From contig CM048848.1 of assembly GCA_026545225.1 (NCBI GenBank), positions 50,265,806-50,329,805 on the forward strand: a DNA stretch of 64,000 nucleotides, read 5' to 3'. Made by a program: the position numbers and the translations under genes. Shown in pieces: positions 1 to 53,819 of this stretch. The notes under the pieces were generated by a model. The model ran no database searches and was not told the origin of the DNA. It saw only the letters and a list, made by a program, of their open reading frames with translations. Numbering within the stretch: position 1 is the stretch's first letter; each line of letters opens with the position of its first letter. The DNA comes from Cornus controversa. Lineage: Eukaryota > Streptophyta > Magnoliopsida > Cornales > Cornaceae.

Positions 1-1
1 T

Positions 2-357
2 GAATTCAAAGTCATGAAATTTCAAACATAAATGAATTGTACGAAAATTCTGATGTGGATATGAAAAATTAACGTTTATTTTATTCAAGTACGCAAAATA
101 CCATTACTATTTTTACAACCAGTGATAAAAAAAAAATCAACTAAATTGTGATCACGAGTTTTGAAAATAGTCTTGCCTACGTGCACAAAATTGGTGATGC
201 AAAAATGGATATCGAGTTTGATAACCTGATCGGCTAAGGATAGTTTATTTAATAAGTAAAATAAAATAAATTGATAAGAAAAGAGAAGGGCAAATAATGA
301 TTGGAGTAGGGAAAATTACAAATACGTGGACTTTTGGAATCAAATTTACAAATGCAT
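2..357 (+). repeat. Monomer type A (example), ~356 bp deletion derivative
   Basis: Type A opens the higher-order repeat. Compared with C, D and E it lacks the roughly 130 bp that normally carry the TATGTATTGGTCATTGAG block and the stretch around it. Its sequence jumps from GATGCAAAAA directly to GGATATCGAGTTTGATAACC. It also carries private changes such as CAAGTACGCAAAATACC and a GATCACGAG segment. An A unit begins nearly every HOR in both HOR domains and is absent from the middle zone between 34.1 and 40.7 kb. Confidence 0.9.
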
Positions 358-699
358 GAAGTCAAAGTCATGAAATTTTAAAAAAATGAATTGTCCTAAA
401 ATGGTGATGTAGATATGAAAAAATACTGTTTATTTTATTCCAGCACACAACCTACTCTAAATATTTTCACAAATAGTGATAAAAAAAAAAAGAGAAAAAA
501 CTAAATTTTGATCATTTATTAGCAAAATTGTCTTCACAAAAAGGGGTACCTCTATTCATAAAAGTGGTGCCGACGTGCAAAAAAATAGTCATTTGATGAT
601 GATAATTTGATCACATTTTCAAAAGAGAAAGGCAAATAATTATTAGAATATATAAAATTACAAATACATGGACTTTTGGAGTCTAATTTACAAATGCAT
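358..699 (+). repeat. Monomer type B (example), ~342 bp deletion derivative
   Basis: Type B always follows A. It carries a different large deletion: sequence passes from GATCATATTTTCAAAA straight to GAGAAAGGCAAATAATT, so the second half of the normal unit, including the GATAACCTGATCGA landmark, is missing. B shares the 'AAAATAGTCTT' variant with A, which suggests the two have a common ancestor or have exchanged sequence. Marker changes include GGGGTACCTCTATTCATAAA and GGTGCCGACGTGC. Confidence 0.9.
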
Positions 700-1204
700 G
701 AAGTCAAATTAATGGAATTTCAAAAAAATCAATTGTCCGATAATGCTGATGTGGATCTAAAAAAATACAGTATATTTTATTCTAGTACACAAACTATTCA
801 TACTATTTTAACCACCTGTAATAAAAAATAAAAAAACCTAAATTTTGAAATATTTTTCACAAAAAGTTGAACCTCTATCCACAAAAGTGGTCCATACTTT
901 CGCAAAACTGGTAATGAGAAATTTGAGTCATCTAATGATGATAATTTGATCACATTCTCAAATCAGATGTATTGGTCATTGAGAGATTACTACTACATGA
1001 GTACTTTAATATATGTTTCATGTTATTACTTTTTTTGTTGTAATAACCCAACGGATATCTGATTTGATAACCTGATCGACTAAGAATTGTTTTTTTCAAA
1101 AAATATAATAAAATAAATTGATATCAAAAGAGAAGGGCAAATAATGATTAGAATACAAAAAATTACAAATACATGGACTTTTGGATTCTAATTTACAAAT
1201 TCAT
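700..1204 (+). repeat. Monomer type C (example), 505 bp full-length unit
   Basis: Type C is the full-length unit against which the others can be described. It contains the 25 bp segment around TTGAAATATTTTTCACAAAAAG that D lacks, and the complete 3' half with TATGTATTGGTCATTGAGAG and GATAACCTGATCGACTAAG. A subtype, here called C2, has GATCGGAAAAAACACAG (or GATCGAAAAAAACACAG) and AGTAGAACCTC, and occurs only directly before E (for example 8286-8790). Confidence 0.9.
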
Positions 1205-1684
1205 GAAGTCAAATTAATGGAATTTCAAAAAAATCAATTATCCGATAATGTTGATGTGGATCTGAAAAAATACAGTATATTTTATTCTAGTACACAAACT
1301 ATTCATACTATTTTAACCACCTGTAATAAAAAATAAAAAAACCTAAATTAACCTCTATCCACAATAAGTGTTCCATACTTTCACAAAACTGGTAATGAGA
1401 AATTTGAGGCATCTAATGATGATAATTTGATCATATTCTCAAAACATATGTATTGGTCATTGAGAGATTACTATTACATGAGTACTTTAATATATGTTTA
1501 ATGTTATTAGTTTTTTTGTTGTAATAACCCAACGGATATCTGATTTGATAACCTGATCGACTAAGGATTGTTTTTTTAAAAAAATATAATAAAATAAATT
1601 GATATCAAAAGAGAAGGCAAATAATGATTAGAATACAAAAAATTACAAATACATGGACTTTTGGATTCTAATTTACAAATTCAT
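1205..1684 (+). repeat. Monomer type D (example), ~481 bp
   Basis: Type D equals C minus 25 bp: CCTAAATT joins directly to AACCTCTATCC. It also has the linked change CAATAAGTGTTCC (left domain) or CAATAAGTGGTCC (right domain). This copy is 480 bp because one G is missing from the GAAGGGC motif near 1617. D alternates with C in the left domain and replaces C altogether in the right domain. Confidence 0.9.
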
Positions 1685-2200
1685 GAAGTCAAATTAACGA
1701 AATTTCAAAAAAATCAATTGTCCGATAATGTTTATGTGGATGTGAAAAAATACGGTTTATTTTATTCTAGTACACAAACTTTTCATATTATTTTGACAGC
1801 CTGTGATAAAAAAAATAAAAATAAAAAAACTAAATTTTTAAATATTTTTCACAAAAAGTTGTACGTCTATCCACAAAAGTGGTGCATACGTGCACAAAAA
1901 AGGTAATGAAAAATTTGAGTCATCTGATGACGATAATTTGATCAGATTCTAAAATAATATTTATTTGTCATTGAGAAATTAGTACTACATGAGTACTTTC
2001 ATATATGTTTAATGTTGTTCCTTTTTTTGATCTAATAACTGAACGGATATTTGATTTGATAACCTGATCGGCAATGGATTATTTTTTTTTTAAATATAAT
2101 AAAATAAAATAAATTGATATCAGAAGAAAAGGGCAAACAATTATTAGAATTGGGAAAATTACAAAAACATGGACTTTTGGAGTTTAATTTACAAATGCAT
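1685..2200 (+). repeat. Monomer type E (example), ~516 bp, closes the HOR
   Basis: Type E closes each higher-order repeat. It is marked by GTTTATGTGGATGTGAAAAA, TTTTGACAGCCTGTG (TTTTGACAACCTGTG in the right domain), ATACGTGCACAAAA, and a 3' end with GTTGTTCC and GATCGRCAATGGATTA. It contains an open frame of 62-96 codons depending on the copy. In the left domain a poly-A insertion shifts that frame, so the predicted ends differ between domains. Confidence 0.9.
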
Positions 2201-4400
2201 GAATTCAAAGTCATGAAATTTCAAACATAAATGAATTGTACGAAAATTCTGATGTGGATATGAAAAATTAACGTTTATTTTATTCAAGTACGCAAAATAC
2301 CATTACTATTTTTACAACCAGTGATAAAAAAAAAATCAACTAAATTGTGATCACGAGTTTTGAAAATAGTCTTGCCTACGTGCACAAAATTGGTGATGCA
2401 AAAATGGATATCGAGTTTGATAACCTGATCGGCTAAGGATAGTTTATTTAATAAGTAAAATAAAATAAATTGATAAGAAAAGAGAAGGGCAAATAATGAT
2501 TGGAGTAGGGAAAATTACAAATACGTGGACTTTTGGAATCAAATTTACAAATGCATGAAGTCAAAGTCATGAAATTTTAAAAAAATGAATTGTCCTAAAA
2601 TGGTGATGTAGATATGAAAAAATACTGTTTATTTTATTCCAGCACACAACCTACTCTAAATATTTTCACAAATAGTGATAAAAAAAAAAAGAGAAAAAAC
2701 TAAATTTTGATCATTTATTAGCAAAATTGTCTTCACAAAAAGGGGTACCTCTATTCATAAAAGTGGTGCCGACGTGCAAAAAAATAGTCATTTGATGATG
2801 ATAATTTGATCACATTTTCAAAAGAGAAAGGCAAATAATTATTAGAATATATAAAATTACAAATACATGGACTTTTGGAGTCTAATTTACAAATGCATGA
2901 AGTCAAATTAATGGAATTTCAAAAAAATCAATTGTCCGATAATGCTGATGTGGATCTAAAAAAATACAGTATATTTTATTCTAGTACACAAACTATTCAT
3001 ACTATTTTAACCACCTGTAATAAAAAATAAAAAAACCTAAATTTTGAAATATTTTTCACAAAAAGTTGAACCTCTATCCACAAAAGTGGTCCATACTTTC
3101 GCAAAACTGGTAATGAGAAATTTGAGTCATCTAATGATGATAATTTGATCACATTCTCAAATCAGATGTATTGGTCATTGAGAGATTACTACTACATGAG
3201 TACTTTAATATATGTTTCATGTTATTACTTTTTTTGTTGTAATAACCCAACGGATATCTGATTTGATAACCTGATCGACTAAGAATTGTTTTCTTCAAAA
3301 AATATAATAAAATAAATTGATATCAAAAGAGAAGGGCAAATAATGATTAGAATACAAAAAATTACAAATACATGGACTTTTGGATTCTAATTTACAAATT
3401 CATGAAGTCAAATTAATGGAATTTCAAAAAAATCAATTATCCGATAATGTTGATGTGGATCTGAAAAAATACAGTATATTTTATTCTAGTACACAAACTA
3501 TTCATACTATTTTAACCACCTGTAATAAAAAATAAAAAAACCTAAATTAACCTCTATCCACAATAAGTGTTCCATACTTTCACAAAACTGGTAATGAGAA
3601 ATTTGAGGCATCTAATGATGATAATTTGATCATATTCTCAAAACATATGTATTGGTCATTGAGAGATTACTATTACATGAGTACTTTAATATATGTTTAA
3701 TGTTATTAGTTTTTTTGTTGTAATAAGCCAACGGATATCTGATTTGATAACCTGATCGACTAAGGATTGTTTTTTTTAAAAAATATAATAAAATAAATTG
3801 ATATCAAAAGAGAAGGGCAAATAATGATTAGAATACAAAAAATTACAAATACATGGACTTTTGGATTCTAATTTACAAATTCATGAAGTCAAATTAATGA
3901 AATTTCAAAAAAATCAATTGTCCGATAATGTTTATGTGGATGTGAAAAAATACGGTTTATTTTATTCTAGTACACAAACTTTTCATATTATTTTGACAGC
4001 CTGTGATAAAAAAAATAAAAATAAAAAAACTAAATTTTTAAATATTTTTCACAAAAAGTTGTACGTCTATCCACAAAAGTGGTGCATACGTGCACAAAAA
4101 AGGTAATGAAAAATTTGAGTCATCTGATGACGATAATTTGATCAGATTCTAAAATAATATTTATTTGTCATTGAGAAATTACTACTACATGAGTACTTTC
4201 ATATATGTTTAATGTTGTTCCTTTTTTTGATCTAATAACTGAACGGATATTTGATTTGATAACCTGATCGGCAATGGATTATTTTTTTTTTAAATATAAT
4301 AAAATAAAATAAATTGATATCAGAAGAAAAGGGCAAACAATTATTAGAATTGGAAAAATTACAAAAACATGGACTTTTGGAGTTTAATTTACAAATGCAT
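2201..4400 (+). repeat. HOR 2: A-B-C-D-E
   Basis: A 2200 bp unit with the same monomer order as HOR 1 and shared private variants, for example CAGCACACAACC in B and AATGCTGATG in C. Confidence 0.92.
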
Positions 4401-6600
4401 GAATTCAAAGTCATGAAATTTCAAACATAAATGAATTGTACGAAAATTCTGATGTGGATAAGAAAAATTAACGTTTATTTTATTCAAGTACGCAAAATAC
4501 CATTACTATTTTTACAACCTGTGATAAAAAAAAAAAATCAACTAAATTGTGATCACGAGTTTTGAAAATAGTCTTGCCTACGTGCACAAAATTGGTGATG
4601 CAAAAATGGATATCGAGTTTGATAACCTGATCGGCTAAGGATAGTTTATTTAATAAGTAAAATAAAATAAATTGATAAGAAAAGACAAGGGCAAATAATG
4701 ATTGGAGTAGGGAAAATTACAAATACGTGGACTTTTGGAATCAAATTTCCAAATGCATGAAGTCAAAGTCATGAAATTTTAAAAAAATGAATTGTCCTAA
4801 AATGGTGATGTAGATATGAAAAAATACTGTTTATTTTATTGCAGTAGACAACCTACTCTAAATATTTTCACAAATAGTGATAAAAAAAAAAGAGAAAAAA
4901 CTAAATTTTGATCATTTGTTAGCAAAATTGTCTTCACAAAAAGGGGTACCTCTATTCATAAAAGTGGTGCCGACGTGCAAAAAAATAGTCATTTGATGAT
5001 GATAATTTGATCACATTTTCAAAAGAGAAAGGCAAATAATTATTAGAATATATAAAATTACAAATACATGGACTTCTGGAGTCTAATTTACAAATGCATG
5101 AAGTCAAATTAATGGAATTTCAAAAAAATCAATTGTCCGATAATGCTGATGTGGATCTGAAAAAATACAGTATATTTTATTCTAGTACACAAACTATTCA
5201 TACTATTTTAACCACCTGTAATAAAAAATAAAAAAACCTAAATTTTGAAATATTTTTCACAAAAAGTTGAACCTCTATCCACAAAAGTGGTTCATACTTT
5301 CACAAAACTGGTAATGAGAAATTTGAGTCATGTAATGATGATAATTTGATCATATTCTCAAATCATATGTATTGGTCATTGAGAGATTACTACTACATGA
5401 GTACTTTAATATATGTTTAATGTTATTACTTTTTTTGTTGTAATAACCCAACGGATATTTGATTTGATAACCTGATCGACTAAGAATTGTTTTTTTCAAA
5501 AAATATAATAAAATAAATTGATATCAAAAGAGAAGGGCAAATAATGATTAGAATACAAAAAATTACAAATACATGGACTTTTGGATTCTAATTTACAAAT
5601 TCATGAAGTCAAATTAATGGAATTTCAAAAAAATCAATTATCCGATAATGTTGATGTGGATCTGAAAAAATACAGTATATTTTATTCTAGTACACAAACT
5701 ATTCATACTATTTTAGCCACCTGTAATAAAAAATAAACAAACCTAAATTAACCTCTATCCACAGTAAGTGTTCCATACTTTCACAAAACTGGTAATGAGA
5801 AATTTGAGTCATTTAACGATGATAATTTGATCATATTCTCAAATCATTTGTATTGGTCATTGAGAGATTACTACTACATGAGTACTTTAATATATGTTTA
5901 ATGTTATTACTTTTTTTGATGTAATAATCCAACGGATATCTGATTTGATAACCTGATCGACTAAGAATTGTTTTTTTCAAAAAATATAATAAAATAAATT
6001 GATATCAAAAGAGAATGGCAAATAATGATTAGAATACAAAAAATTACAAATACATGGACTTTTGGATTCTAATTTACAAATTCATGAAGTCAAATTAATG
6101 GAATTTCAAAAAAATCAATTGTCCGATAATGTTTATGTGGATGTGAAAAAATACGGTCTATTTTATTCTAGTACACAAACTGTTCATGTTATTTTGACAG
6201 CCTGTGATAAAAAAAATAAAAATAAAAAAACTAAATTTTTAAATATTTTTCACAAAAAGTTGTACGTCTATCCACAAAAGTGGTGCATACGTGCACAAAA
6301 AAGGTAATGAAAAATTTGAGTCATCTGATGACGATAATTTGATCAGATTCGAAAATAATATTTATTTGTCATTGAGAAATTACTACTACATGAGTACTTT
6401 CATATATGTTTAATGTCGTTCCTTTTTTTGATCTAATAACTGAACGGATATTTGATTTGATAACCTGATCGACAATGGATTTTTTTTTTTTAAATATAAT
6501 AAAATAAAATAAATTGGTATCAGAAGAAAAGGGCAAATAATCATTAGAATAGGGAAAATTACAAAAACATGGACTTTTGGAGTTTAATTTACAAATGCAT
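4401..6600 (+). repeat. HOR 3: A-B-C-D-E
   Basis: A 2200 bp unit in the same order, but more diverged from HOR 1 and 2 than those are from each other. Examples are GCAGTAGACAACC in B and TTTAGCCACC in D. Confidence 0.92.
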
Positions 6601-9304
6601 GAAGTCAAAATCATGAAATTTCAAACATAAATGAATTGCACGAAAATGCTGATGTGGATATGAAAAATTAACGTTTATTTTATTCAAGTACGCAAAATAC
6701 CAATACTATTTTTACAACCAGTGATAAAAAAAAAAAATCAACTAAATTGTGATCACGGGTTTTGAAAATAGTCTTGCCTACGTGCACAAAATTGGTGATG
6801 CAAAAATGGATATCGAGTTTGATAACCTGATCGGCTAAGGATAGTTTATTTAATAAGTAAAATAAAATAAATTGATAACAAAAGAGAAGGGCAAATAATG
6901 ATTGGAGTAGGGAAAATTACAAAAACGTGGACTTTTGGAATCAAATTTACAAATGCATGAAGTCAAAGTCATGAAATTTTAAAAAAATGAATTGTCCTAA
7001 CATGGTGATGTAGATATGAAAAAATACTGTTTATTTTATTCCAGTACACAAACTACTCTAAATATTTTCACAAATAGTGATAAAAAAAAAAGAGAAAAAA
7101 CTAAATTTTGATCATTTGTTAGCAAAATAGTCTTCACAAAAAGGGGTAACTCTATTCATAAAAGTGGTGCCGACGTGCAAAAAAATAGTCATTTGATGAT
7201 GATAATTTGATCATATTTTCAAAAGAGAAAGGCAAATAATTATTAGAATATATAAAATTACAAATACATGGACTTCTGGAGTCTAATTTACAAATGCATG
7301 AAGTCAAATTAATGGAATTTCAAAAAAATCAATTGTCCGATAATGTTGATGTGGATCTGAAAAATACAGTATATTTTATTCTAGTACACAAACTATTCAT
7401 ACTATTTTAACCACCTGTAATAAAAAATAAAAAAAACCTAAATTTTGAAATATTTTTCACAAAAAGTTGAACCTCTATCCACAAAAGTGGTCCATACTTT
7501 CACAAAACTGGTAATGAGAAATTTGAGTCATCTAATGATGATAATTTGATCATATTCTCAAATCATATGTATTGGTTATTGAGAGATTACTACTACATTA
7601 GTACTTTAATATATGTTTAATGTTATTACTTTTTTTGTTGTAATAACCCAACGGATATATGATTTGATAACCTGATCGACTAAGAATTGTTTTTTTCAAA
7701 AAATATAATGAAATAAATTGATATCAAAAGAGAAGGGCAAATAATGATTAGAATACAAAAAATTACAAATACATGGACTTCTGGATTCTAATTTACAAAT
7801 TCATGAAGTCAAATTAATAGAATTTCAAAAAAATCAATTATCCGATAATGTTGATGTGGATCTGAAAAAATACAGTATATTTTATTCTACTACACAAACT
7901 ATTCATACTATTTTAACCACCTGTAATAAAAAATAAAAAAACCTAAATTAACCTCTATCCATAATAAGTGTTCCATACTTTCACAAAACTGGTAATGAGA
8001 AATTTGAGTCATCTAATGATGATAATTTGATCATATTCTCAAATCATATGTATTGGTCATTGAGAGATTACTACTACATGAGTACTTTAATATATGTTTA
8101 ATGTCATTACTTTTTTTGTTGTAATAACCCAACGGATATCTGATTTGATAACCTGATCGACTAAGAATTGTTTTTTTCAAAAATTATAATAAAATAAATT
8201 GATATCAAAAGAGAAGGGCAAATAATGATTAGAATACAAAAAATTACAAATACATGGACTTTTGGATTCTAATTTACAAATTCATGAAGTCAAATTAATG
8301 GAATTTCAAAAAAATCAATTGTCCGATAATGTTGATGTGGATCGGAAAAAACACAGTATATGTTATTCTAGTACACAAACTATTCATACTATTTTAACCA
8401 CCTGTAATAAAAAATAAAAAAACCTAAATTTTGAAATATTTTTCACAAAAAGTAGAACCTCTATCCACAAAAGTGGTCCATACTTTCACAAAACTGGTAA
8501 TGAGAAATTTAAGTCATCTAACGATGATAATTTGATCACATTCTCAAATCATATGTATTGGTCATTGAGAGATTACTACTACATGAGTACTTTAATATAT
8601 ATTTAATGTTATTACTTTTTTTGTTGTAATAATCCAACGGATATCTGAATTGATAACCTGATCGACTAAGGATTGTTTTTTTCAGAAAATATAATAAAAT
8701 AAATTGATATCAAAAGAGAAGGGCAAATAATGATTAGAATACAAAAAATTACAAATACATGGACTTTTGGATTCTAATTTACAAATTCATGAAGTCAAAT
8801 TAATGGAATTTCAAAAAATCAATTGTCCGATAATGTTTATGTGGATGTGAAAAAATACGGTTTATTTTATTCTAGTACACAAACTATTCATATTATTCTG
8901 ACAGCCTGTGATAAAAAAAATAAAAATAAAAAAACTAAATTTTTAAATATTTTTCACAAAAAGTTGTACGCCTATCCACAAAAGTGGTGCATACGTGCAC
9001 AAAAAAGGTAATGAAAAATTTGAGTCATCTGATGACGATAATTTGATCAGATTCTAAAATAATATTTATTTGTCATTGAGAAATTATTACTACATGAGTA
9101 CTTTCATATATGTTTAATGTTGTTCCTTTTTTTGATCTAATGACTGAACGGATATTTGATTTGATAACCTGATGGACAATGGATTTTTTTTTTTTAAATA
9201 TAATAAAATAAAATAAATTGATATCAGAAAAAAAGGGCAAATAATCATTAGAATAGGGAAAATTACAAAAACATGGACTTTTGGAGTTTAATTTACAAAT
9301 GCAT
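6601..9304 (+). repeat. HOR 4: A-B-C-D-C2-E
   Basis: A 2704 bp unit with one additional 505 bp C2 monomer (8286-8790) between D and E. The following E has one A fewer in the CAAAAAATCAATTG run, so its open frame starts later. Confidence 0.9.
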
Positions 9305-12300
9305 GAATTCAAAGTCATGAAATTTCAAACATAAACGAATTGTACGAAAATGCTGATGTGGATATGAAAAATTAACGTTTTTTTTATTCAAGTACGCAAA
9401 ATACCATTACTATTTTGACAACCAGCGATAAAAAAAAAATCAACTAAATTGTGTTCACGAGTTTTGAAAATAGTCTTGCCTACGTGCACAAAATTGGTGA
9501 TGCAAAAATGGATATCGAGTTTGATAACCTGATCGGCTAAGGATAGTTTATTTAATAAGTAAAATAAAATAAATTGATCACAAAAGAGAAGGGCTAATAA
9601 TGATTGGAGTAGGGAAAATTACAAATACGTGCACTTTTGGAATCAAATTTACAAATGCATGAAGTCAAAGTCATGAAATTTTAAAAAAATGAATTGTCCT
9701 AAAATGGTGATGTAGATATGAAAAAATACTGTTTATTTTATTCCAGTACACAAACTACTCTAAATATTTTCACAAATAGTGATAAAAAAAAAAAAAAGTG
9801 AAAAAACTAAATTTTGATCATTTGTTAGCAAAATAGTATTCACAAAAAGTGGTACCTCTATTCTTAAAAATGGTGCCGACGTGCAAAAAAATAGTCATTT
9901 GATGATGATAATTTGATCATATTTTCAAAAGAGAAAGGCAAATAATTATTAGAATATATAAAATTACAAATACATGGACTTCTGGAGTCTAATTTACAAA
10001 TGCATGAAGTCAAATTAATGGAATTTCAAAAAAATCAATTGTCCGATAATGTTGATGTGGATCTGAAAAATACAGTATATTTTATTCTAGTACACAAACT
10101 ATTCATACTATTTTAACCACCTGTAATAAAAAATAAAAAAACCTAAATTTTGAAATATTTTTCACAAAAAGTAGAACCTCCATCCACAAAAGTGGTCCAT
10201 ACTTTCACAAAACTGTTAATGAGAAATTTAAGTCATCTAACGATGATAATTTGTTCACATTCTGAAATCATATGTATTGGTCATTGAGAGATTACTACTA
10301 CATGAGTACTTTAATATATGTTTAATGTTATTACTTTTTTTGTTGTAATAACCCAACGGATATCTGATTTGATAACCTCATCGACTAAGGATTGTTTTTT
10401 CAAATAATATAATAAAATAAATTGATATCAAAAGAGAAGGGCAAATAACGATTAGAATACAAAAAATTACAAATACATGGACTTTTGGATTCTAATTTAC
10501 AAATTCATGAAGTCAAATTAATGGAATTTCAAAAAAATCAATTATCCGATAATGTTGATGTGGATCTGAAAAAATACAGTATATTTTATTCTACTACACA
10601 AACTATTCATACTATTTTAACCACCTGTAATAAAAAATAAAAAAACCTAAATTAACCTCTATCCACAATAAGTGTTCCATACTTTCACAAAACTGGTAAT
10701 GAGAAATTTGAGGCATCTAATGATGATAATTTGATCATATTCTCAAATCATATGTATTGGTCATTGAGAGATTACTACTACATGAGTACTTTAATATATG
10801 TTTAATGTTATTACTTTTTTTGTTGTAATAACCCAACGGATATTTGATTTGATAACCTGATCGACTAAGAATTGTTTTTTTCAAAAGATATAATAAAATA
10901 AATTGATATCAAAAGAGAAGGGCAAATAATGATTAGAATTCAAAAAATTACAAATACATGGACTTTTGGATTCTAATTTACAAATTCATGAAGTCAAATT
11001 AATGGGATTTCAAAAAAATCAATTATCCGATAATGTTGATGTGGATCTGAAAAAATACAGTATATTTTATTCTAGTACACAAACTATTCATACTATTTTA
11101 GCCACCTGTAATAAAAAATAAACAAACCTAAATTAACCTCTGTCCACAATAAGTGTTCCATACTTTCACAAAACTGGTAATGAGAAATTTGAGTCATTTA
11201 ATGATGATAATTTGATCATATTCTCAAATCATATGTATTGGTCATTGAGAGATTACTACTACATGAGTACTTTAATATATGTTTAATGTTATTACTTTTT
11301 TTGATGTAATAACCCAACGGATATCTGATTTGATAACCTGATCGACTAAGAATTGTTTTTTTCAAAAAATATAATAAAATAAATTGATATCAAAATAGAA
11401 GGGCAAATAATGATTAGAATACAAAAAATTACAAATACATGGACTTTTGGATTCTAATTTACAAATTCATGAAGTCAAATTAATGGAATTTCAAAAAAAT
11501 CAATTGTCCGATAATGTTGATGTGGATCGAAAAAAACACAGTATATTTTATTCTAGTACACAAACTATTCATACTATTTTAACCACCTGTAATAAAAAAT
11601 AAAAAAACCTAAATTTTGAAATATTTTTCACAAAAAGTAGAACCTCTATCCACAAAAGTGGTCCATACTTTCACAAAACTGGTAATGAGAAATTTAAGTC
11701 ATCTAAGGATGATAATTTGATCACATTCTCAAATCATATGTATTGGTCATTGAGAGATTACTACTACATGAGTACTTTAATATATGTTTAATGTTATTAC
11801 TTTTTTTGTTGTAATAACCCAACGGATATCTGATTTGATAACCTGATCGACTAAGGATTGTTTTTTTCAGAAAATAAAATAAAATAAACTGATATCAAAA
11901 GAGAAGGGCAAATAATGATTAGAATACAAAAAATTACAAATACATGGACTTTTGGATTCTAATTTACAAATTCATGAAGTCAAATTAATGGAATTTCAAA
12001 AAATCAATTGTCCGATAATGTTTATGTGGATTTGAAAAAATACGGTTTATTTTATTCTACTACACAAACTATTCATATTATTCTGACAGCCTGTGATAAA
12101 AAAAATAAAAATAAAAAAACTAAATTTTTAAATATTTTTCACAAAAAGTTGTACGCCTATCCACAAAAGTGGTGCATACGTGCACAAAAAAGGTAATGAA
12201 AAATTTGAGTCATCTGATGACGATAATTTGATCAGATTCTAAAATAATATTTATTTGTCATTGAGAAATTACTACTACATGAGTACTTTCATATATGTTT

Positions 12301-39449: not shown

Positions 39450-40745
39450 ATAAATACTGTTTATGAAAAAATACTGTTTATTTTATTCCAGTACACAAAC
39501 TACTCTAAATATTTTCACAACTAGTGATAAAAAAAAAAGAGAGAAAAAACTAAATTTTGATCAATTGTTAGCAAAATAGTTTTCACAAAATGGGGTACCT
39601 CTATTCATAAAAGTGGTGCCGACTTGCAAAAAAATAGTCATTTGATGATGATAATTTTATCATATTTTCAAAAGAGAAAGGCAAATAATTATTAGAATAT
39701 AGAAAATTACAAATACATGGACTTTTGGAGTTTAATTTACAAATGCATGAAGTCAAATTAATGGAATTCCAAAAAAAACAATTGTCCGATAATGTTGATG
39801 TGGATCAGAAAAAATACAGTATATGTTATTCTAGTACACAAACTACTCATACTATTTTAACCACCTGTAATAAAAAATAAAAAAACCTAAATTAACCTCT
39901 ATCCACAATAAGTGGTCCGTACTTTCACAAAACTGGTAATGAGAAATTTGAGTGATCTAATGATGATAATTTGATCATATTCTCAAATCATATGTATTGG
40001 TCATTAAGAGATTACTACTACATAAGTACTTTAATATATGTTTAATGTTATTACTTTTTTTATTGTAATAATCCAACGGATATCTGATTTGATAACCTGA
40101 TCGACTAAGGATTTTTTTTTGAAAAAAATATAAAAAAATAAATTGATATCAAAAGAAAAGGGCAAATAATGATTAGAATACAAAAAATTACAAATACATG
40201 GACTTTTGGATTCTAATTTACAAATTCGTGAAGTCAAATTAATGGAATTTCAAAAAAATCAATTGTCCGATAATGTTTATGTGGATGTGAAAAAATACGG
40301 TTTATTTAATTATATTACACAAACTATTCATATTATTTTCACAACCTGTGATAAAAAAATAAAAATAAAAAACCTAAATTTTCAAATATTTTTCACAAAA
40401 AGTTGTACCTCTATCCACAAAAGTGGTGCATACGTGCACAAAACAGGTAATGAAAAATTTGAGTCATCTGATGACGATAATTTGATCAGATTCTAAAATA
40501 ATATTTATTTGTCATTGAGAAATTACTACTAAATGAGTACTTTCATATATGTTTAATGTTGTTCCTTTTTTTTGATCGAATAACTGAACGAATATTTGAT
40601 TTGATAACCTGATCGACAATGGATTATTTTTTTTTTAAATATAATAAAATAAAATAAATTGATATCAGAAGAAAAGAGCAAATAATTATTAGAATAGGAA
40701 AAATTAAAAAAACATGGACTTTTGGAGTTTAATTTACAAATGCAT
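39450..40745 (+). repeat. C-to-B fusion, then B fragment, D and E
   Basis: At about 39449 the C unit breaks off after GGATATCTGATTTA and continues inside a B monomer (ATGAAAAAATACTG). The B copy therefore lacks its first ~55 bp. A short local repeat of AATACTGTTTA sits at the join. D occupies 39749-40229 and E 40230-40745. This fusion marks the start of the right HOR domain. Confidence 0.82.
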
Positions 40746-42922
40746 GAAGTCAAAGTCATGAAATTTCAAACATAATTGAATTGTACGAAAATGCTGATGT
40801 GCATATGAAAAATTAATGTTTATTTTATTCAAGTACGCAAAATACCATTACTATTTTGACAACCAGTGATAAAAAAAAAATCAACTAAATTGTGATCACG
40901 AGTTTTCAAAATAATCTTGCCTACGTGCACAAAATTGGTGATGCAAAAATGGATATCCAGTTTGATAACCTGATCGGCTAAGGATAATTTATTTAATAAG
41001 TAAAATAAAATAAATTGATAACAAAAGAGAAGGGCAAATAATGATTGGTGTAGGGAAATTACAAATACGTGGACTTTTGGAATAAAATTTACAAATGCAT
41101 GAAGTCAAAGTCATGAAATTTTAAAAAAATGAATTGTCCTAATATGGTGATGTAGATAAGAAAAAATACTGTGTATTTTATTCCAGTACACAAACTACTC
41201 TAAATATTTTCACAAATAGTGATAAAAAAAAAAAGAGAAAAAACTAAATTTTGATCATTTGTTAGCAAAATAGTCTTCACAAAAAGGGGTACCTCTATTC
41301 ATAAAAGTGGTGCCGACGTGCAAAAAAATAGTCATCTGATGATGATAATTTGATCATATTTTCAAAAGAGAAAGGTAGATAATTATTAGAATATATAAAA
41401 TTACAATACATGGACTTTTGGAGTCTAATTTACAAATGCATGAAGTCAAATTAATGGAATTTCAAAACAATCAAATGTCCGATAATGTTGATGTGGATCT
41501 GAAAAAGTACAGTATACTTTATTCTAGTACACAAACTACTCATACTATTTTAACCACCTGTAATAAAAAATAAAAAAAACCTAAATTAAACTCTATCCAC
41601 AATAAGTGGTCCATACTTTCACAAAACTGGTAATAAGAATTTTGAGTCATCTAATGATGACAATTTGATCATATTCTCAAATCATATGTATTGGTCATTG
41701 AGATATTACTACTACATGAGTACTTTAATATATGTTTAATGTTATTACTTTTTTTGTTGTAATAACCCGACGGATATCTGATTTGATAACCTGATCGACT
41801 AAGGATTGTTTTTTTAAAAAAAATATAATAAAATAAATTGATATCAAAAGAGAAGGGAAAATAATGATTAGAATACAAAAAATTACAAATACATGGACTT
41901 TTGGATTCTAATTTACAAATTCATGAAGTCAAATTAATGGAATTTCAAAAAAATCAATTGTCCAATAATGTTGATGTGGATCTGTAAAAATACAGTATAT
42001 GTTATTCTAGTACACAAACTACTCATACTATTTTAACCACCTGTAATAAAAAATAAAAAAACCTAAATTAACCTCTATCCACAATAAGTGGTCCATACTT
42101 TCACAAAACTGGTAATGAGAAATTTGAGTCATCTAATGATGATAATTTGATCATATTCTCAAATCATATGTATTGGTCATTGAGAGATTACTACTACATG
42201 AGTACTTTAATAAATGTTTAATGTTATTACTTTTTTTGTTGTAATAACCCAACGGATATCTGATTTGATAACCTGATCGACTAAGGATTGTTTTTTTAAA
42301 AAAATACAACAAAATAAATTGATATCAAAAGAGTAGGGCAAATAATGATTAGAATACAAAAAATTACAAATACATGGACTTCTGGATTCTGATTTACAAA
42401 TTCGTGAAGTCAAATTAATGGAATTTCAAAAAAATCAATTGTCCGATAATGTTTATGTGGATGTGAAAAAATACGGTTTATTTTATTCTAGCACACAAAC
42501 TATTCATATTATTTTGACAACCTGTGATAAAAAAAGAAAAATAAAAAAACTAAATTTTAAAATATTTTTCACAAAAAGTTGTACCTCTATCCACAAAAGT
42601 GGTGCATACGTGCACAAAATAGGTAATGAAAAATTTGAGTCATCTGATGACGATAATTTGATCAAATTCTAAAATAATACTTATTTGTCATTGAGAAAGT
42701 ACTACTACGTGAGTACTTTCATATATGTTTAATGTTGTTCCTTTTTTTTTTATCTAATAACTGAACGGATATTTGATTTGATAACCTAATCGACAATGGA
42801 TTATTTTTTTTTTAAATATAATAAAATAGAATAAATTGATATCAGAAGAAAAGAGCAAATAATTATTAGAATAGGGAAAATTAAAAAAACATGGACTTTT
42901 GGAGTTTAATTTACAAATGCAT
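40746..42922 (+). repeat. Right HOR 1: A-B-D-D-E
   Basis: Units are A 40746-41100, B 41101-41441, D 41442-41924, D 41925-42405 and E 42406-42922. This is the only right-domain HOR with two D units. Confidence 0.88.
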
Positions 42923-44418
42923 AAAGTCAAAGTCATGAAATTTCAAACATAAATGAATTGTACGAAAATGCTTATGTGGATATGAAAAATTAACGTTTAT
43001 TATATTCAAGTACGCAAAATACCATTACTATTTTGACAACCAGTGATAAGAAAAAAAAATTCAACTAAATTGTGATCACGAGTTTTCAAAATAGTCTTGC
43101 CTACGTGCACAAAATTGGTGATGCAAAAATGGATATCCAGTTTGATAACCTGATCGGCTAAGGATAGTTTATTTAATAAGTAAAATAAAATAAATTGATA
43201 ACAAAAGTGAAGGGCAAATAATGATTGGAGTTGGGAAAATTACAAATACGTGGACTTTTGGAATCAAATTTACAAATGCATGAAGTCAAGGTCATGAAAT
43301 TTTAAAAAAATGAATTGTCCTAAAATGGTGATGTAGATATGAAAAAATACTGTTTATCTTATTCAAGTACACAAACTACTATAAATATTTCCACAAATAG
43401 TGATAAAAAAAAAAGAGAAAAAACTAAATTTTGATCATTTGTTAGCAAAATAGTCTTCACAAAAAGGGTACATCTATTCATAAAAGTGGTGCCGACGTGC
43501 AAAAAAATAGTCATCTGATGATGATAATATGATCATATTTTCAAAAGAGAGAGGCAAATAATTATTAGAATATATATAATTACAAATACATGGACTTTTG
43601 GAGTCTAATTTACAAATGCATGAAGTCAAATTAATGGAATTTCAAAAAAATCAATTGTCCGATAATGTTGATGTGGATCTAAAAAAGTACAGTATACTTT
43701 AATCTACTACACAAACTACTCATACTATTTTAACCACCTGTAATAAAAAATAAAAAAAACCTAAATTAACCTCTATCCACAATAAGTGGTCCATACTTTC
43801 ACAAAACTGGTAATGAGAATTTTGAGTCATCTAATGATGACAATTTGATCATATTCTCAAATCATATGTATTTGTCATTGAGAGATTACTACTACATGAG
43901 TACTTTAATATATGTTTAATGTAATTACTTTTTTTGTTGTAATAACCCAACGGATATATGATTTGATAACCTGATCGACTAAGGATTGTTTTTTTTAAAA
44001 AATATAACAAAATAAATTGATATCAAAAGAAAAGGGCAAATAATGATTAGAAAACAAAAAATTACAAATACATGGACTTTTGGATTCTGATTTACAAATT
44101 CATGAAGTCAAATTAATGGAATTTCAAAAAAATCAATTGTCCGATAATGTTTATCTGGATGTGAAAAAATACGGTTTATTTTATTCTGTTACACAAACTA
44201 TTCATACTATTTTGACAACCTGTGATAAAAAAAGAAAAATAAAAAAACTAAATTTTGAAATATTTTTCACAAAAAGTTGTACCTCTATCCACAAAAGTGG
44301 TGCATACGTGCACAAAACAGGTAATGAAAAATTTGAGTCATCTGATGACGATAATTTGATCAGATTCTAAAATAATATTTATTTGTCATTGAGAAATTAC
44401 TACTACATGAGTACTTTC
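42090..44418 (+). repeat. 2.3-kb duplicated segment, copy 2
   Basis: Second copy of the segment at 31570-33897. Upstream the flanks differ (here a D unit, there a C unit). Downstream copy 2 continues as an ordinary E, while copy 1 becomes a chimera. Confidence 0.88.
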
Positions 44419-44617
44419 ATATATGTTTAATGTTGTTCCTTTTTTTGATCTAATAACTGAACGGATATTTGATTTGATAACCTGATCGACAATGGATTAT
44501 TTTTTTTTAAATATAATAAAATAAAATAAATTGATATCAGAAGAAAAGAGCAAATAATTATTAGAATAGGGAAAATTACAAAAACATGGACTTTTGGAGT
44601 TTAATTTAAAAATGCAT
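42923..44617 (+). repeat. Right HOR 2: A-B-D-E
   Basis: A 1695 bp unit that is almost a copy of 32403 to about 33897 at an offset of 10.52 kb. Confidence 0.9.
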
Positions 44618-46314
44618 GAAGTCAAAGTCATGAAATTTCAAATATAAATGAATTGCACGAAAATGCTGATGTGGATAGGAAAAATTAACGTTTATTTTAT
44701 TCAAGTACGCAAAATACCATTTTTATTTTAACAACCAGTGATAAAAAAAAAAATCAACTAAATTGTGATCACGAGTTTTCAAAATAGTCTTGCCTACGTG
44801 CACAAAATTGGCGATGAAAAAATGGATATCGAGTTTGATAACCTGATCGACTAAGGATAGTTTATTTAATAAGTAAAATAAAATAAATTGATAACAAAAG
44901 AGAAGGGCAAATAATGATTTGAGTAGGGAAAATTACAAATACATGGACTTTTGGAATCAAATTTACAAATGCATGAATTCAAAGTCATGAAATTTAAAAA
45001 AAAATGAATTGTCCTAAAATGGTGATGTAGATATGAAAAAATACTGTGTCTTTTATTCCAGTACACAAACTACTATAAATATTTTCACAAATAGTGATAA
45101 AAAAAAAAAGAGAAAAAACTAATTTTTGATCATTTGATAGCAATATAGTCTTCACAAAAAGGGGTACCTCTATCCATAAAAGTGGTGCCGAGATGCAAAA
45201 AAATAGTCATCTGATGATAATAATTTGATCATATTTTCAAAAGAGAAAGGAAAATAATTATTAGAATATATAAAATTACAAATACATGGACTTTAGAAGT
45301 CTAATTTACAAATGCATGAAGTCAAATTAATGGAATTTCAAAAAAATCAATTGTCCGATAACGTTGATGTGGATCTGAAAAAATACAGTATATTTTATTC
45401 TAGTACACAAACTATTCATACTATTTTAACCACCTGTAATAAAAAATAAAAAAACCTAAATTAACCTCTATCCACAATAAGTGGTCCATACTTTCACAAA
45501 ACTGGTAATGAGAATTTTGAGTCATCTAATGATGATAATTTGATCATATTCTCAAATCATATGTATTGGTCATTGAGAGATTACTACTACATGAGTACTT
45601 TAATATATGTTTAATGTTATTACTTTTTTTGTTGTAATAACCCAACGGATATCTGATTTGATAACCTGATCGACTAAGGATTGTTTTTAAAAAAATATAT
45701 AATAAAATAAATTGATATCAAAAGAAAACGGGAAATAATGATTAGAATACAAAAAATTACAAATACGTGGACTTTTGGATTGTAATTTACAAATTCATGA
45801 AGTCAAATTAATGGAATTTCAAAAAAATCAATTGTCCGATAATGTTTATGTGGATGTGAAAAAATACGGTTTACTTTATTCTAGCACACAAACTATTCAT
45901 ATTATTTTGACAACTTGTGATAAAAAAAAGAAAAATAAAAAAACTAAATTTTGAAATATTTTTCACAAAAAGTTGTACCTCTATCCACAAAAGTGGTGCA
46001 TACGTGCACAAAACAGGTAATGAAAAATTTGAGTCATCTGATGACGATAATTTGATCAGATTCTAAAATAATATTTATTTGTCATTGAGAAATTACTACT
46101 ACATGAGTACTTTCATATATGTTTAATGTTGTTCCTTTTTTTGATCTAATAACTGAACGGATATTTGATTTGATAACCTGATCGACAATGGATTATTATT
46201 TTTTTAAATATAATAAAATAAAATAAATTGATATCAGAAGAAAAGGGCAAATAATTATTAGAATAGGGAAAATTAAAAAAACATGGACTTTCGGAGTTTA
46301 ATTTAAAAATGCAT
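44618..46314 (+). repeat. Right HOR 3: A-B-D-E
   Basis: A 1697 bp unit. Its B carries ACTGTGTCTTTTATTCC and GATAGCAATATAGTC, variants shared only with the next two HORs. Confidence 0.9.
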
Positions 46315-48010
46315 GAAGTCAAAGTCATGAAATTTCAAACATAAATGAATTGCACGAAAATGCTGATCTGGATATGAAAAATTAACGTTTATTTTATTCA
46401 AGTACGCAAAATACCATTACTATTTTGACAACCAGTGATAAAAAAAAAAAATCAACTAAATTGTGATCACGAGTTTTCAAAATAGTCTTACCTACGTGCA
46501 CAAAATTGGCGATGAAAAAATGGATATCGAGTTTGATAACCTGATCGACTAAGGATAGTTTATTTAATAAGTAAAATAAAATAAATTGATAACAAAAGAG
46601 AAGGGCAAATAATGATTGGAGTAGGGAAAATTACAAATACATGGACTTTTGGAATCAAATTTACAAATGCATGAATTCATAGTCATGAAATTTAAAAAAA
46701 ATGAATTGTCCTAAAATGGTGATGTAGATATGAAAAAATACTGTGTCTTTTATTCCAGTACACAAACTACTATAAATATTTTCACAAATAGTGATAAAAA
46801 AAAAAAGAGAAAAAACTAATTTTTGATCATTTGATAGCAATATAGTCTTCACAAAAAGGGGTACCTCTATCCATAAAAGTGGTGCCGACATGCAAAAAAA
46901 TAGTCATCTGATGATAATAATTTGATCATATTTTCAAAAGAGAAAGGCAAATAATTATTAGAATATATAAAATTACAAATACATGGACTTTAGAAGTCTA
47001 ATTTACAAATGCAGGAAGTCAAATTAATGGAATTTCAAAAAAATCAATTGTCCGATAACGTTGATGTGGATCTGAAAAAATACAGTATATTTTATTCTAG
47101 TACACAAACTATTCATACTATTTTAACCACCTGTAATAAAAAATAAAAAAACCTAAATTAACCTCTATCCACAATAAGTGGTCCATACTTTCACAAAACT
47201 GGTAATGAGAATTTTGAGTCATCTAATGATGATAATTTGATCATATTCTCAAATCATATGTATTGGACATTGAGAGATTACTACTACATGAGTATTTTAA
47301 TATTTTTTAATGTTATTACTTTTTTTGTTGTAATAACCCAACGGATATCTGATTTGATAACCTGATCGACTAAGGATTGTTTTTTTTTTAAAATATAATA
47401 AAATAAATTGATATCAAAAGAGAAGGGCAAAGAATGATTAGAATACAAAAAATTACAAATACGTGGACTTTTGGATTCTAATTTACAAATTCATGAAGTC
47501 AAATTAATGGAATTTCAAAAAATCAATTGTCCGATAATGTTTATGTGGATGTGAAAAAATACGGTTTATTTTATTCAAGCACACAAACTATTCATATTAT
47601 TTTGACAACTTGTGATAAAAAAAAGAAAAATAAAAAAACTAAATTTTGAAATACTTTTCTCTAAAAGTTGTACCTCTATCCACAAAAGTGGTGCATACGT
47701 GCACAAAACAAGTAATGAAAAATTTGATCATATGATGATGATAATTTGATCAAATTCTAAAATAATACTTATTTGTCATTGAGAAATTACTACTACGTGA
47801 GTACTTTCATATATGTTTAATGTTGCTCCTTTTTTTTTGATCTAATAACTGAACGGATATTTGATTTGATAACCTGATCGACAATGGATTATTTTTTTTT
47901 TAAATATAATAAAATAAAATAAATTGATATCAGAAGAAAAGAGCAAATAATTATTAGAATAGGGAAAATTAAAAAAACATGGACTTTCGGAGTTTAATTT
48001 AAAAATGCAT
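46315..48010 (+). repeat. Right HOR 4: A-B-D-E
   Basis: A 1696 bp unit that shares the B variants of its neighbours. Its E ends with a more altered region near 47650-47740 (CTTTTCTCTAAAAG, TTTGATCATATGATG). Confidence 0.9.
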
Positions 48011-49709
48011 GAAGTCAAAGTCATGAAATTTCAAACATAAATGAATTGCACGAAAATGCTGATCTGGATATGAAAAATTAACGTTTATTTTATTCAAGTA
48101 CGCAAAATACCATTACTATTTTGACAACCAGTGATAAAAAAAAAAAATCAACTAAATTGTGATCACGAGTTTTCAAAATAGTCTTGCCTACGTGCACAAA
48201 ATTGGCAATGAAAAAATGGATATCGAGTTTGATAACCTGATCGGATAAGGATAGTTTATTTAATAAGTAAAATAAAATAAATTGATAACAAAAGAGAAGG
48301 GCAAATAATGATTGGAGTAGGGAAAATTACAAATACGTGGACTTTTGGAATCAAATTTACAAATGCATGAATTCAAAGTCATGAAATTTAAAAAAAAATG
48401 AATTATCCTAAAATGGTGATGTAGATATGAAAAAATACTGTGTCTTTTATTCCAGTACACAAACTACTATAAATATTTTCACAAATAGTGATAAAAAAAA
48501 AAAGAGAAAAAACTAATTTTTGATCATTTGATAGCAATATAGTCTTCACAAAAAGGGGTACCTCTATCCATAAAAGTGGTGCCGACATGCAAAAAAATAG
48601 TCATCTGATGATAATAATTTGATCAAATTTTCAAAAGAGAAAGGCAAATAATTATTAGAATATATAAAATTACAAATACATGGACTTTTGAAGTCTAATT
48701 TACAAATGCATGAAGTCAAATTAATGGAATTTCAAAAAAATCAATTGTCCGATAACGTTGATGTGGATCTGAAAAAATACAGTATATTTTATTCTAGTAC
48801 ACAAACTATTCATACTATTTTAACCACCTGTAATAAAAAATTAAAAAACCTAAATTAACCTCTATACACAATAAGTGGTCCATACTTTCACAAAACTAGT
48901 AATGAGAATTTTGAGTCATCTAATGATGATAATTTGATCATATTCTCAAATCATATGTATTGGTCATTGAGAGATTACTACTACATGAGTACTTTAATAT
49001 ATGTTTAATGTTATTATTTTTTTTGTTGTAATAACCCAACGGATATCTGATTTGATAACCTGATCGACTAAGGATTGTTTTTTTAAAAAAATATAATAAA
49101 ATAAATTGATATCAAAAGAGAAGGGCAAATAATGATTAGAATACAAAAAATTACAAATACGTAGACTTTTGGATTCTAATTTATAAATTCATGAAGTCAA
49201 ATTAATGGAATTTCAAAAAAATCAATTGTCCGATAATGCTTATGTGGATGTGAAAAAATACGGTTTATTTTATTCTAGTACACAAACTATTCATATTATT
49301 TTGACAACCTGTGATAAAAAAAGAAAAATAAAAAAACTAAATTTAGAAATATTTTTCACAAAAAGTTGTACCTCTATCCACAAAAGTGGCGCATACGTGC
49401 ACAAAACAGGTAATGAAAAATTTGAGTCATCTGATGACGATAATTTGATCAGATTCTAAAATAATACTTATTTGTCATTGAGAAATTACTACTACGTGAG
49501 TACTTTCATATATGTTTAATGTTGTTCCTTTTTTTTTTATCTAATAACTGAACGGATATTTGATTTGATAACCTGATCGACAATGGATTATTTTTTTTTT
49601 AAATATAATAAAATAAAATAAATTGATATCAGAAGAAAAGAGCAAATAATTATTAGAATAGGGAAAATTACAAAAACATGGACTTTTGGAGTTTAATTTA
49701 CAAATGCAT
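48011..49709 (+). repeat. Right HOR 5: A-B-D-E
   Basis: A 1699 bp unit with the last copy of the ACTGTGTCTTTTATTCC B variant. Its D has a T in the poly-A block (AAAAAATTAAAAAACC). Confidence 0.9.
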
Positions 49710-51407
49710 GAAGTCAAAGTCATGAAATTTCAAACATAAATGAATTGCACGAAAATGCTGATGTGGATATGAAAAATTAACGTTTATTTTATTCAATTAC
49801 GCAAAATACCATTACTATTTTGACAACCAGTGATAAAAAAAAAAATCAACTAAATTGTGATCACGAGTTTTCAAAATAGTCTTGCCTACGTGCACAAAAT
49901 TGGTGATGCAAAAATGGATATCCAGTTTGATAACCTGATCGGCTAAGGATAGTTTATTTAATAAGTAAAATAAAATAAATTGATAACAAAAGAGAAGGGC
50001 AAATAATGATTGGAGTAGGGAAAATTACAAATACGTGGACTTTTGGAATCAAATTTACAAATGCATGAAGTCAAAGTCATGAAATTTAAAAAAAAATGAA
50101 TTGTCCTAAAATGGTGATGTAGATATGAAAAAATACTGTGTATTTTATTCCAGTACACAAACTACTCTAAATATTTTCACAAATAGTGATAAAAAAAAAG
50201 AGAAAAAAAACTAAAATTTGATCATTTGTTAGCAAAATAGTCATCACAAAAAGGGGTACCTCTATTCATAAAAGTGGTGCCGACGTGCAAAAAAATAGTC
50301 ATCTGATGATGATAATTTGATCATATTTTCAAAAGAGAAAGGAAAATAATTATTAGAATATATGAAATTACAAATACATGGACTTTTAGAGTCTAATTTA
50401 CAAATGCGTGAAGTCAAATTAATGGAACTTCAAAAAAATCAATTGTCCGATAATGTTGATGTGGATCTGAAAAAATACAGTATATTTTATTCTAGTACAC
50501 AAACTATTCATACTATTTTAACCACCTGTCATAAAGAATAAAAAAACCTAAATTAACCTCTATCCACAATAAGTGGTCCATACTTTCACAAAACTGGTAA
50601 TGAGAATTTTGAGTCATCTAATGATGATAATTTGATCATATTCTCAAATCATATGTATTGGTCATTGAGAGATTACTACTACATGAGTACTTTAATATAT
50701 GTTTAATATTATTACTTTTTTTGTTGTAATAACCCAACGGATATCTGATTTGATAACCTGATCGACTAAGGATTATTTTTTTAAAAAAATATAATAAAAT
50801 AAATTGATATCAAAAGAAAACGGCAAATAATGATTAGAATACAAAAAATTACAAATACGTGGACTTTTGGATTCTAATTTACAAATTCATGAAGTCAAAT
50901 TAATGGAATTTCAAAAAAATCAATTGTCCGATAATGTTTATGTGGATGTGAAAAATACGGTTTATTTTATTCTAGCACACAAACTATTCATATTATTTTG
51001 ACAACTTGTGATAAAAAAAAGAAAAATAAAAAAACTAAATTTTGAAATATTTTTCACAAAAAGTTGTACCTCTATCCACAAAAGTGGTGCATACGTGCAC
51101 AAAACAGGTAATGAAAAATTTGAGTCATCTGATGACGATAATTTGATCAGATTCTAAAATAATATTTATTTTTCATTGAGAAATTAATACTACGTGAGTA
51201 CTTTCATATATGTTTAATGTTGTTCCTTTTTTTTTTATCTAATAACTGAACGGATATTTGATTTGATAACCTGATCGACAATGAATTATTATTTTTTTAA
51301 ATATAATAAAATAAAATAAATTGATATCAGAAGAAAAGAGCAAATAATTATTAGAATAGGGAAAATTACAAAAACATGGACTTTTGGAGTTTAATTTACA
51401 AATGCAT
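49710..51407 (+). repeat. Right HOR 6: A-B-D-E
   Basis: A 1698 bp unit. B has ACTGTGTATTTTATTCC and CTAAAATTTGATC, shared with the next HOR. Confidence 0.9.
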
Positions 51408-52975
51408 GAAGTCAAAGTCATGAAATTTCAAACATAAATGAATTGCACGAAAATGCTGATGTGGATATGAAAAATTAACGTTTATTTTATTCAAGTACGC
51501 AAAATACCATTACTATTTTGACAACCAGTGATAAAAAAAAAAATCAACTAAATTGTGATCACGAGTTTTCAAAATAGTCTTGCCTACGTGCACAAAATTG
51601 GTGATGCAAAAATGGATATCCAGTTTGATAACCTGATCGGCTAAGGATAGTTTATTTAATAAGTAAAATAAAATAAATTGATAACAAAAGAGAAGGTCAA
51701 ATAATGATTGGTGCAGGGAAAATTACAAATACGTGGACTTTTGGAATCAAATTTACAAATGCATGAAGTCAAAGTCATGAAATTTAAAAAAAAATGAATT
51801 GTCCTAAAATGGTGATGTAGATATGAAAAAATACTGTGTATTTTATTCCAGTACACAAACTACTCTAAATATTTTCACAAATAGTGATAAAAAAAAAAAG
51901 AGAAAAAACTAAAATTTGATCATTTGTTAGCAAAATAGTCTTCACAAAAAGGGGTACCTCTATTCATAAAAGTTGTGCCGACGTGCAAAAAAATAGTCAT
52001 CTGATGATGATAATTTGATCATATTTTCAAAAGAGAAAGGAAAATAATTATTAGAATTTATAAAATTACAAATACATGGACTTTTGGAGTCTAATTTACA
52101 AATGCATGAAGTCAAATTAATGGAATTTCAAAAAAATCAATTGTCCGATAATGTTGATGTGGATCTGAAAAAATACAGTATATGTTATTCTAGTACACAA
52201 ACTACTCATACTATTTTAACCACCTGTAATAAAAAATAAAAAAACCTAAATTAACCTCTATCCACAATAAGTGGTCCATACTTTCACAAAACTGGTAATG
52301 AGAATTTTGAGTCATCTAATGATGATAATTTGATCATATTCTCAAATCATATGTATTGGTCATTGAGAGATTACTACTACATGAGTACTTTAATATATGT
52401 TTAATGTTATTACTTTTTTTGTTGTAATAACCCAACGGATATCTGATTTGATAACCTGATCGACTAAGGATTGTTTTTTTAAAAAAATATAATAAAATAA
52501 ATTGATATCAAAAGAGAAGGGCAAATAATGATTAGAATACAAAAAATTACAAATACGTGGACTTTTGGATTCTAATTTACAAATTCATGAAGTCAAATTA
52601 ATGAAATTTCAAAAAAATCAATTGTCCGATAATGTTTATGTGGATGTGAAAAAATACGGTTTATTTTATTCTAGTACACAAACTATTCATATTATTTTGA
52701 CAACCTGTGATAAAAAAATAAAAATAAAAAAACTAAATTTTGAAATATTTTTCACAAAATGTTGTACCTCTATCCACAAAAGTGGCGCATACGTGCACAA
52801 AACAGGTAATGAAAAATTTGAGTCATCTGATGACGATAATTTGATCAGATTCTAAAATAATATTTATTTGTCATTGAGAAATTACTACTACATGAGTACT
52901 TTCATATATGTTTAATGCTGTTCCTTTTTTTTGATCTAATAACTGAACGGATATTTGATTTGATAACCTGATCGA
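51408..52975 (+). repeat. Right HOR 7: A-B-D-E, truncated by array end
   Basis: The last HOR. Its E starts at 52589 and stops at 52975, directly after GATAACCTGATCGA, leaving about 387 of the usual ~516 bp. The following sequence has no similarity to the satellite that I can see. Confidence 0.9.

Positions 52976-53766: not shown

Positions 53767-53819
<53 letters not shown>

Follow-up and report, generated by a model that had tools for sequence, protein, structure and literature searches.

A higher-order satellite array of long, length-variable monomers in Cornus controversa, consistent with unequal exchange limited by monomer divergence

Results

Extent and composition of the array

We examined a 64,000-nucleotide stretch of the Cornus controversa genome (assembly GCA_026545225.1, contig CM048848.1, positions 50,265,806 to 50,329,805, forward strand), here called the window and numbered from its first base. 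Most of it, 1..52975 on the + strand, is a satellite array of 117 anchored monomers, preceded at 1-312 by a partial monomer of the class called A below and arranged head to tail throughout. The anchor, 26 bases with up to seven mismatches tolerated, gave 117 sites on the + strand, the first at base 313 and the last at 52,544, and its reverse complement gave a single match, with seven mismatches, in the flank at 55,300. Bases 1-312 are the remainder of an A monomer and are identical at 312/312 positions to the A monomer at 2156. The array is open at the window's left end and extends past it, which makes its length at least 52,975 bp. It is AT-rich, with a GC content of 24.7-26.2% across the 2-kb steps that lie wholly inside it. 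The right edge is sharp and falls near 52,975 within a monomer of class E (52544..52975, + strand), which is cut after GATAACCTGATCGA at the junction between array and flank, with different DNA beyond. A first-pass annotation of this DNA had proposed one satellite family across 1-52975, and this is borne out by the 117 monomers anchored on the same strand: the locus is a long head-to-tail tandem array, as a satellite with higher-order repeats (HORs) should be.

Monomer classes

At divergence thresholds of 6% and 9% alike, clustering resolved the monomers into five groups: 19 A, 20 B, 22 E (a count that takes in the final, cut copy), 55 C/D and one odd monomer of 666 bp. Median lengths are 358 bp for A, 342.5 bp for B and, leaving aside the cut copy, 515 bp for E; sorting by indel divides the C/D group into 27 C monomers of 505 bp and 28 D monomers of 481 bp. 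One consecutive run illustrates them all on the + strand: A (about 358 bp) at 2156..2511, B (about 342 bp) at 2512..2853, the 505-bp form C at 2854..3358, the 481-bp form D at 3359..3839 and E (about 515 bp) at 3840..4355. Identity is 0.80-0.88 between classes and 0.96-0.97 within them. The 248 shared columns with a base in almost every monomer gave a tree, by a quick search and without bootstrap, in which A, B, E and C/D each fall on one side of a branch, with SH-aLRT values of 99, 99, 88 and 96, respectively. The tree includes the hybrid monomer 81 and omits monomers 66, 67, 74 and 85, which lie at or beside aberrant junctions, and the cut monomer 116.

The discrete length variants described earlier were recovered, but the proposal of five equal classes was not: four are separate, and C and D belong to a single class, told apart by an indel and a base linked perfectly to it. 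Relative to C, D has 25 bp deleted and one base added 16 bp further on, a combination present in 28/28 D and 0/27 C monomers. Outside the indel region, mean identity is 0.962 among C copies, 0.958 among D copies and 0.957 between the two. On shared sequence there are thus four classes, and C and D are two haplotypes of one of them. Counting against a full merger of C and D, the nearest neighbour is of the same type in 50/55 cases where 26.5 would be expected, an excess perhaps due to neighbouring units having been copied recently. We also tried to define positional subtypes of C/D by clustering on overall distance; positions were not separated in this way, and the marker columns alone separated them. 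One D monomer, monomer 76 (34553-35068), is 516 bp long owing to a 36-bp direct duplication (34727-34798, 94% alike) across the D deletion junction.

Classes A and B are shortened, at 358 and 342 bp against 505 bp (about 30%), and stand at the heads of units, as the first-pass annotation had noted. When the consensuses were placed in one alignment, A proved to lack blocks of 32 and 129 bp relative to E and to carry 12 extra bases elsewhere, and B showed gaps of 16, 135 and 35 bp and 14 extra bases elsewhere. The 135- and 35-bp gaps are probably one deletion of about 170 bp, so that 16- and about 170-bp blocks would be missing from B; the exact deletion ends in A and B vary with the aligner. 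From the aligned consensuses, the length variants of A and B are best read as deletions. The gaps overlap in part, some sequence being absent from A alone, some from B alone and some from both. Because the overlap is only partial, the simplest reading is one full-length ancestor with independent deletions in A and B, although the part absent from both could alternatively have been gained in the C/D/E line.

Order of the monomers

The monomers follow the order A-B-(C/D)n-E: the next monomer is B after A in 19/19 cases, C or D after B in 20/20 and A after E in 19/21, and the conditional entropy of the order is 0.98 bit, far under the 2.21 +/- 0.04 bits of 2000 shuffles, which substantiates the A-B-(C/D)-E order first proposed. 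Nineteen units open with an A that lies entirely inside the window, the last of these units being cut inside E. In the 17 of these 19 that are intact, C/D copies number from one to five, and A and B are single throughout; the C/D run has a mean of 2.1 and a standard deviation (sd) of 1.3. Of the two irregular units, one reads ABCDECDCE and the other contains a disordered stretch. Adjacent units are 0.95-0.99 identical on A+B+E, and identity between units declines with distance (Spearman -0.51). Diverged classes in a fixed order, forming multimers that are more alike than neighbouring monomers, are the mark of a HOR and are found here.

Blocks and lineages

The array is divided into two ordered blocks around a disordered stretch. 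The left block (1..31840, + strand) consists of ABC(C/D)nE units of 1.7-4.2 kb, with a mean nearest-neighbour identity of about 0.99. The disordered stretch (34048..39453, + strand) is made of C/D monomers with no whole A, B or E. The right block (40701..52975, + strand) begins with one ABDDE unit and continues with six ABDE units of about 1,697 bp, of which the final one is truncated. Mean nearest-neighbour identity is 0.971 for the ten whole monomers of the disordered stretch and 0.989 for the 105 others, the 666-bp and cut monomers being left unscored. On A+B+E, mean unit identity is 0.980 in the left block and 0.965 in the right. Such a pattern would be expected if the array were amplified at a distance from the flank and aged in its direction, as judged from the single edge that is visible.

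Markers also distinguish the right side of the array. To the right of 31.8 kb, diagnostic sites are uniform in A (one site, 8/8), B (one site, 8/8) and E (two sites, 9/9), and left copies mostly differ at these sites. From 33.1 kb onward, D copies placed directly after B share one marker-column base in 8/8 cases, a base that 0/47 other C/D copies have. A segment of about 3.3 kb (30819..34117, + strand) is duplicated 10.5 kb away at 41362-44642, with 3206 identities, 67 mismatches and 34 gap bases.

Probable traces of exchange

Clear hybrids between classes make up 3/117 monomers, all at 33.5-39.7 kb, as counted by a test that is blind to exchange among C/D copies. Monomer 74 (E/C; 33538..34047, + strand), which forms the left border of the disordered stretch, is E for 410 bp and then has a C/D tail. 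Monomer 81 (E/C; 37042..37546, + strand), within the stretch, is E-like for 182 bp and then C. At the right border lies the 666-bp monomer 85 (C/B; 39038..39703, + strand), C for 416 bp and then the 3' part of B. At another aberrant junction, monomer 67 (30350..30854, + strand) has a C body straight after E, with no A or B, and an A-type head (AAAAAC, GG), a call that depends on very few bases. Across the array, the tail class of the upstream monomer predicts the head marker in 117/117 monomers; for hybrids 74 and 85, the tail class was read from the hybrid's own bases.

A tail haplotype is defined by the bases A and C at two marker columns and was counted in the left block, which covers 35/55 of the C/D monomers. 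It is present in 5/6 last C copies and 1/10 first C copies (Fisher p 0.008). In 2/2 units with a single C, a first-position head is combined with the last-C tail haplotype, and these copies look like fusions of the kind expected after misaligned exchange with loss of sequence. Pairs of sites showing all four gametes number 100/435 in C/D and 12/55 in A; they are few in B (11/190) and many in E (52/136).

The flank

Beyond the array lies a 1,138-bp element at 53296-54433 with inverted ends (GGGTTAAGTGCATTAA...), flanked by the 9-base sequences TTTGAAATA and TTTGCAATA, which are 8/9 alike; we take it to be MULE-like. A second candidate, at 58186-59075, has 45-bp inverted ends (89%) with long nested inverted repeats inside, and by its look is a mobile element of the fold-back type. 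A truncated F-box domain at 59336-59419 passes the Pfam cut-off (E 1.3e-07, positions 2-29 of 43), and it looks like a pseudogene because its frame stops at 59425. An open frame at 63015-63200 is PPR-like by eye, with no Pfam match up to E 1. Two segments 5.5 kb apart, 55638-55705 and 61143-61210, form a direct repeat that is 76% alike, with further similar words around them by eye, and probably represent an unnamed dispersed repeat present here twice. The F-box domain and the plant-like look of the mobile elements agree with a plant host.

Two reading frames from the array gave nothing over the curated Pfam cut-offs and one weak match (E 0.036). No RNA family reached its gathering score, no tRNA gene was found using bacterial settings, and no TTTAGGG pair occurs on either strand of the window, where only 11 kb of flank are in view.

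Discussion

Proposed unequal exchange gated by divergence

We think it likely that the array is a conventional long-unit satellite shaped by unequal exchange, with A-B and E acting as register marks, and it probably belongs to the heterochromatin of a plant chromosome. The array would have grown and been homogenised by unequal exchange, that is, by crossing over or conversion between misaligned copies. A full-length ancestral unit may have given rise to A and B by deletion. With a divergence of about 12-20% between classes, misaligned exchange from one class to another would be rare; C and D, about 96% alike, would continue to exchange with each other. C/D copies could then expand and contract as A-B and E marked the register, and whole units would be amplified together. 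We propose that the number of C/D copies varies and that A-B and E hold register because exchange is gated by class divergence. A protein-binding or centromere role is not needed to explain the pattern, although one may still exist.

To this proposal we added a simulation, in which exchange drops with divergence at a steepness k, run for 150 exchanges and 30 times per setting. The share of intact units was 5% with homology ignored and rose with k, to 23% at k=10, 70% at k=25 and 97% at k=50; 17/19 are observed. The simulated mean C/D run was 2.1 at k=50 and 2.3 at k=25, next to the observed 2.1.

Several points weigh against such a history. The simulation was built after the pattern had been seen and k was freely chosen, and even so no single k matches the intact fraction, entropy and C/D spread jointly. 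The observed intact fraction (0.89) falls between k=25 and k=50, the observed entropy (0.98) falls between k=10 (1.50) and k=25 (0.86), and the spread of the C/D run (sd 1.3) is narrower than the 2.5-3.6 simulated at k=50 and 25. The four-gamete counts fail to tell C/D from A. The tail haplotype was seen in 0/5 last D copies and 0/12 middle copies of the left block and, being absent from these, is a mark of a C lineage and not of last place alone. Crossing over, conversion and break-induced replication are indistinguishable here, and the evidence on mechanism comes from one locus. The simulation is broadly compatible with the array: it suggests that homology-gated exchange would be roughly sufficient, which is not proof.

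Other explanations of the order

It is conceivable, but in our view unlikely, that selection keeps A-B as a functional module, for example as two dinucleosome-length units seating CENH3 chromatin, with C/D as a spacer. The lengths of A and B are close to that of a dinucleosome, B comes next after A in every one of 19 cases, and AA/TT power at 10 bp lies above shuffles in the joined unit (p 0.015) and in A+B (p 0.02). However, these are only two of five tests, neither C (p 0.32) nor E (p 0.53) shows the periodicity, and the A+B peak sits at the edge of the searched range. Between the class consensuses there is no conserved block, with p 0.89 for the longest invariant stretch and p 0.63 for the lowest window of 30 columns, and a CENP-B-like box was not found at up to four mismatches on either strand of the window. 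Moreover, simulated homology-gated exchange preserves A-B without selection. Decidedly unlikely, as we judge it, is the fuller proposal that A-B is a selected module which both sets the register and serves as the seat of a complex, centromeric or heterochromatic, with C/D as a freely expanding spacer; if true, the array would be a two-part satellite of selected A-B module and C/D spacer, for which the published text consulted gives no plant example.

Tandem expansion from a transposable element, as in the Ogre-derived satellites of Lathyrus, also seems quite unlikely. Such origins are in print, in the portion of the report available (PMC7004042), and the unit's first 16 bases recur 30 bp on with 14/16 matches, a recurrence that may be due to chance. 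Against this, no mobile-element Pfam domain was found in two array frames and 14/27 listed flank frames, and nothing next to the edge of the array was recognised as a retroelement, which is weak evidence of absence.

We give little credence to the idea that the unit conceals several copies of a nucleosomal repeat of roughly 170 bp, with C and E as trimers and A and B as dimers: lengths of 505, 516 and 342 bp are close to multiples of about 170, but the best internal self-alignment scores are reached by 54/100 (C) and 32/100 (E) dinucleotide shuffles, offsets of 160-180 are absent among the eight best ungapped offsets of C, D and E, and A and B are accounted for by deletions relative to the long form. 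An internal trimer of about 170 bp was accordingly rejected, the self-alignment of the unit being no better than that of shuffles. That the regular order is an assembly artefact is likewise very improbable: such arrays are hard to assemble and the segment of about 3.3 kb does recur 10.5 kb away, but its two copies differ at 67 positions and 34 gap bases and unit lengths are irregular, which together disfavour a simple mis-join.

Returning to unequal exchange, the interest of the array would lie in one unit that holds both exchanging parts (C/D) and rarely exchanging parts (A, B and E), with hybrids at the exceptions. It may thus provide a compact natural test of divergence as a gate on unequal exchange in satellites. 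The existing understanding of satellites is left unchanged. If the family is undescribed, it could supply a chromosome marker for its host.

Comparison with described satellites

A text search of open-licence papers by unit lengths and sequence words gave no fitting plant satellite. A cave-cricket satellite, pDo500, matched by unit length (463-505 bp, in the part of that report available), and an Arabidopsis paper that also came up was set aside, as the match, in the text retrieved, rested on unrelated numbers. A 23-base unit pattern had no exact match in viral and prokaryote collections.

FabTR-53, a subtelomeric satellite of Lathyrus sativus, is described in the accessible text with subfamilies of 660, 368 and 565 bp and about 76% AT (PMC7004042). 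Like the present array, it has AT-rich long units, strong length variants and long arrays (PMC7004042). In contrast, the same text reports no HORs and reads the units as former HORs of shorter ones, whereas the HOR is clear here and the unit has no internal repeat (PMC7004042). The first-pass annotation had considered strong length polymorphism within a regular HOR to be uncommon; strong length variation in plant satellites is already in print (PMC7004042). Plant HORs (Vaccinium satellites), long monomers and length variants are each already in print, on the portions of those sources available, and their combination as seen here was not met in word searches of open-licence papers.

FabTR-53, khipu, CentPv1 and CentPv2 were compared through short printed probes and primers only, set against the class consensuses. 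The two FabTR-53 primers had 10/23 and 9/24 mismatches, and 38/40 and 20/40 shuffles were as good. For Phaseolus, the best mismatches were 9/25 for CentPv1, 10/25 for CentPv2, 8/25 for CentPv1_A and 8/20 and 6/20 for the khipu primers; CentPv1_A beat 40/40 shuffled probes and one khipu primer 38/40, although, at 8 and 6 mismatches, neither is near to matching. By description, khipu (528 bp) of Phaseolus vulgaris offers plant arrays of an about 500-bp unit, as here (excerpts of PMC3797529, PMC4825637).

The 455-bp centromeric tandem repeat of cowpea, likened by its description, is similarly a long unit in large plant arrays (PMC4856725). The excerpt that describes it mentions no HOR, unlike the array studied here (PMC4856725). 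In Vicia faba, satellites have long monomers of 687-2033 bp and are mostly AT-rich, according to the section available (PMC5895790). A full unit of the present array (1.7-2.2 kb and more) would resemble such a long monomer (PMC5895790). Those monomers, as that section has it, lack internal subrepeats except in VfSat8, whereas here the long period is built of related monomers (PMC5895790).

Human alpha-satellite, as far as the consulted part of PMC8997354 describes it, differs in having monomers of about 171 bp, with CENP-B boxes in one type, where ours are of 342-516 bp with strong length variants. Its HORs are nevertheless alike in organisation, with diverged monomers fixed in order, near-identical multimers and disordered monomeric edges (PMC8997354).

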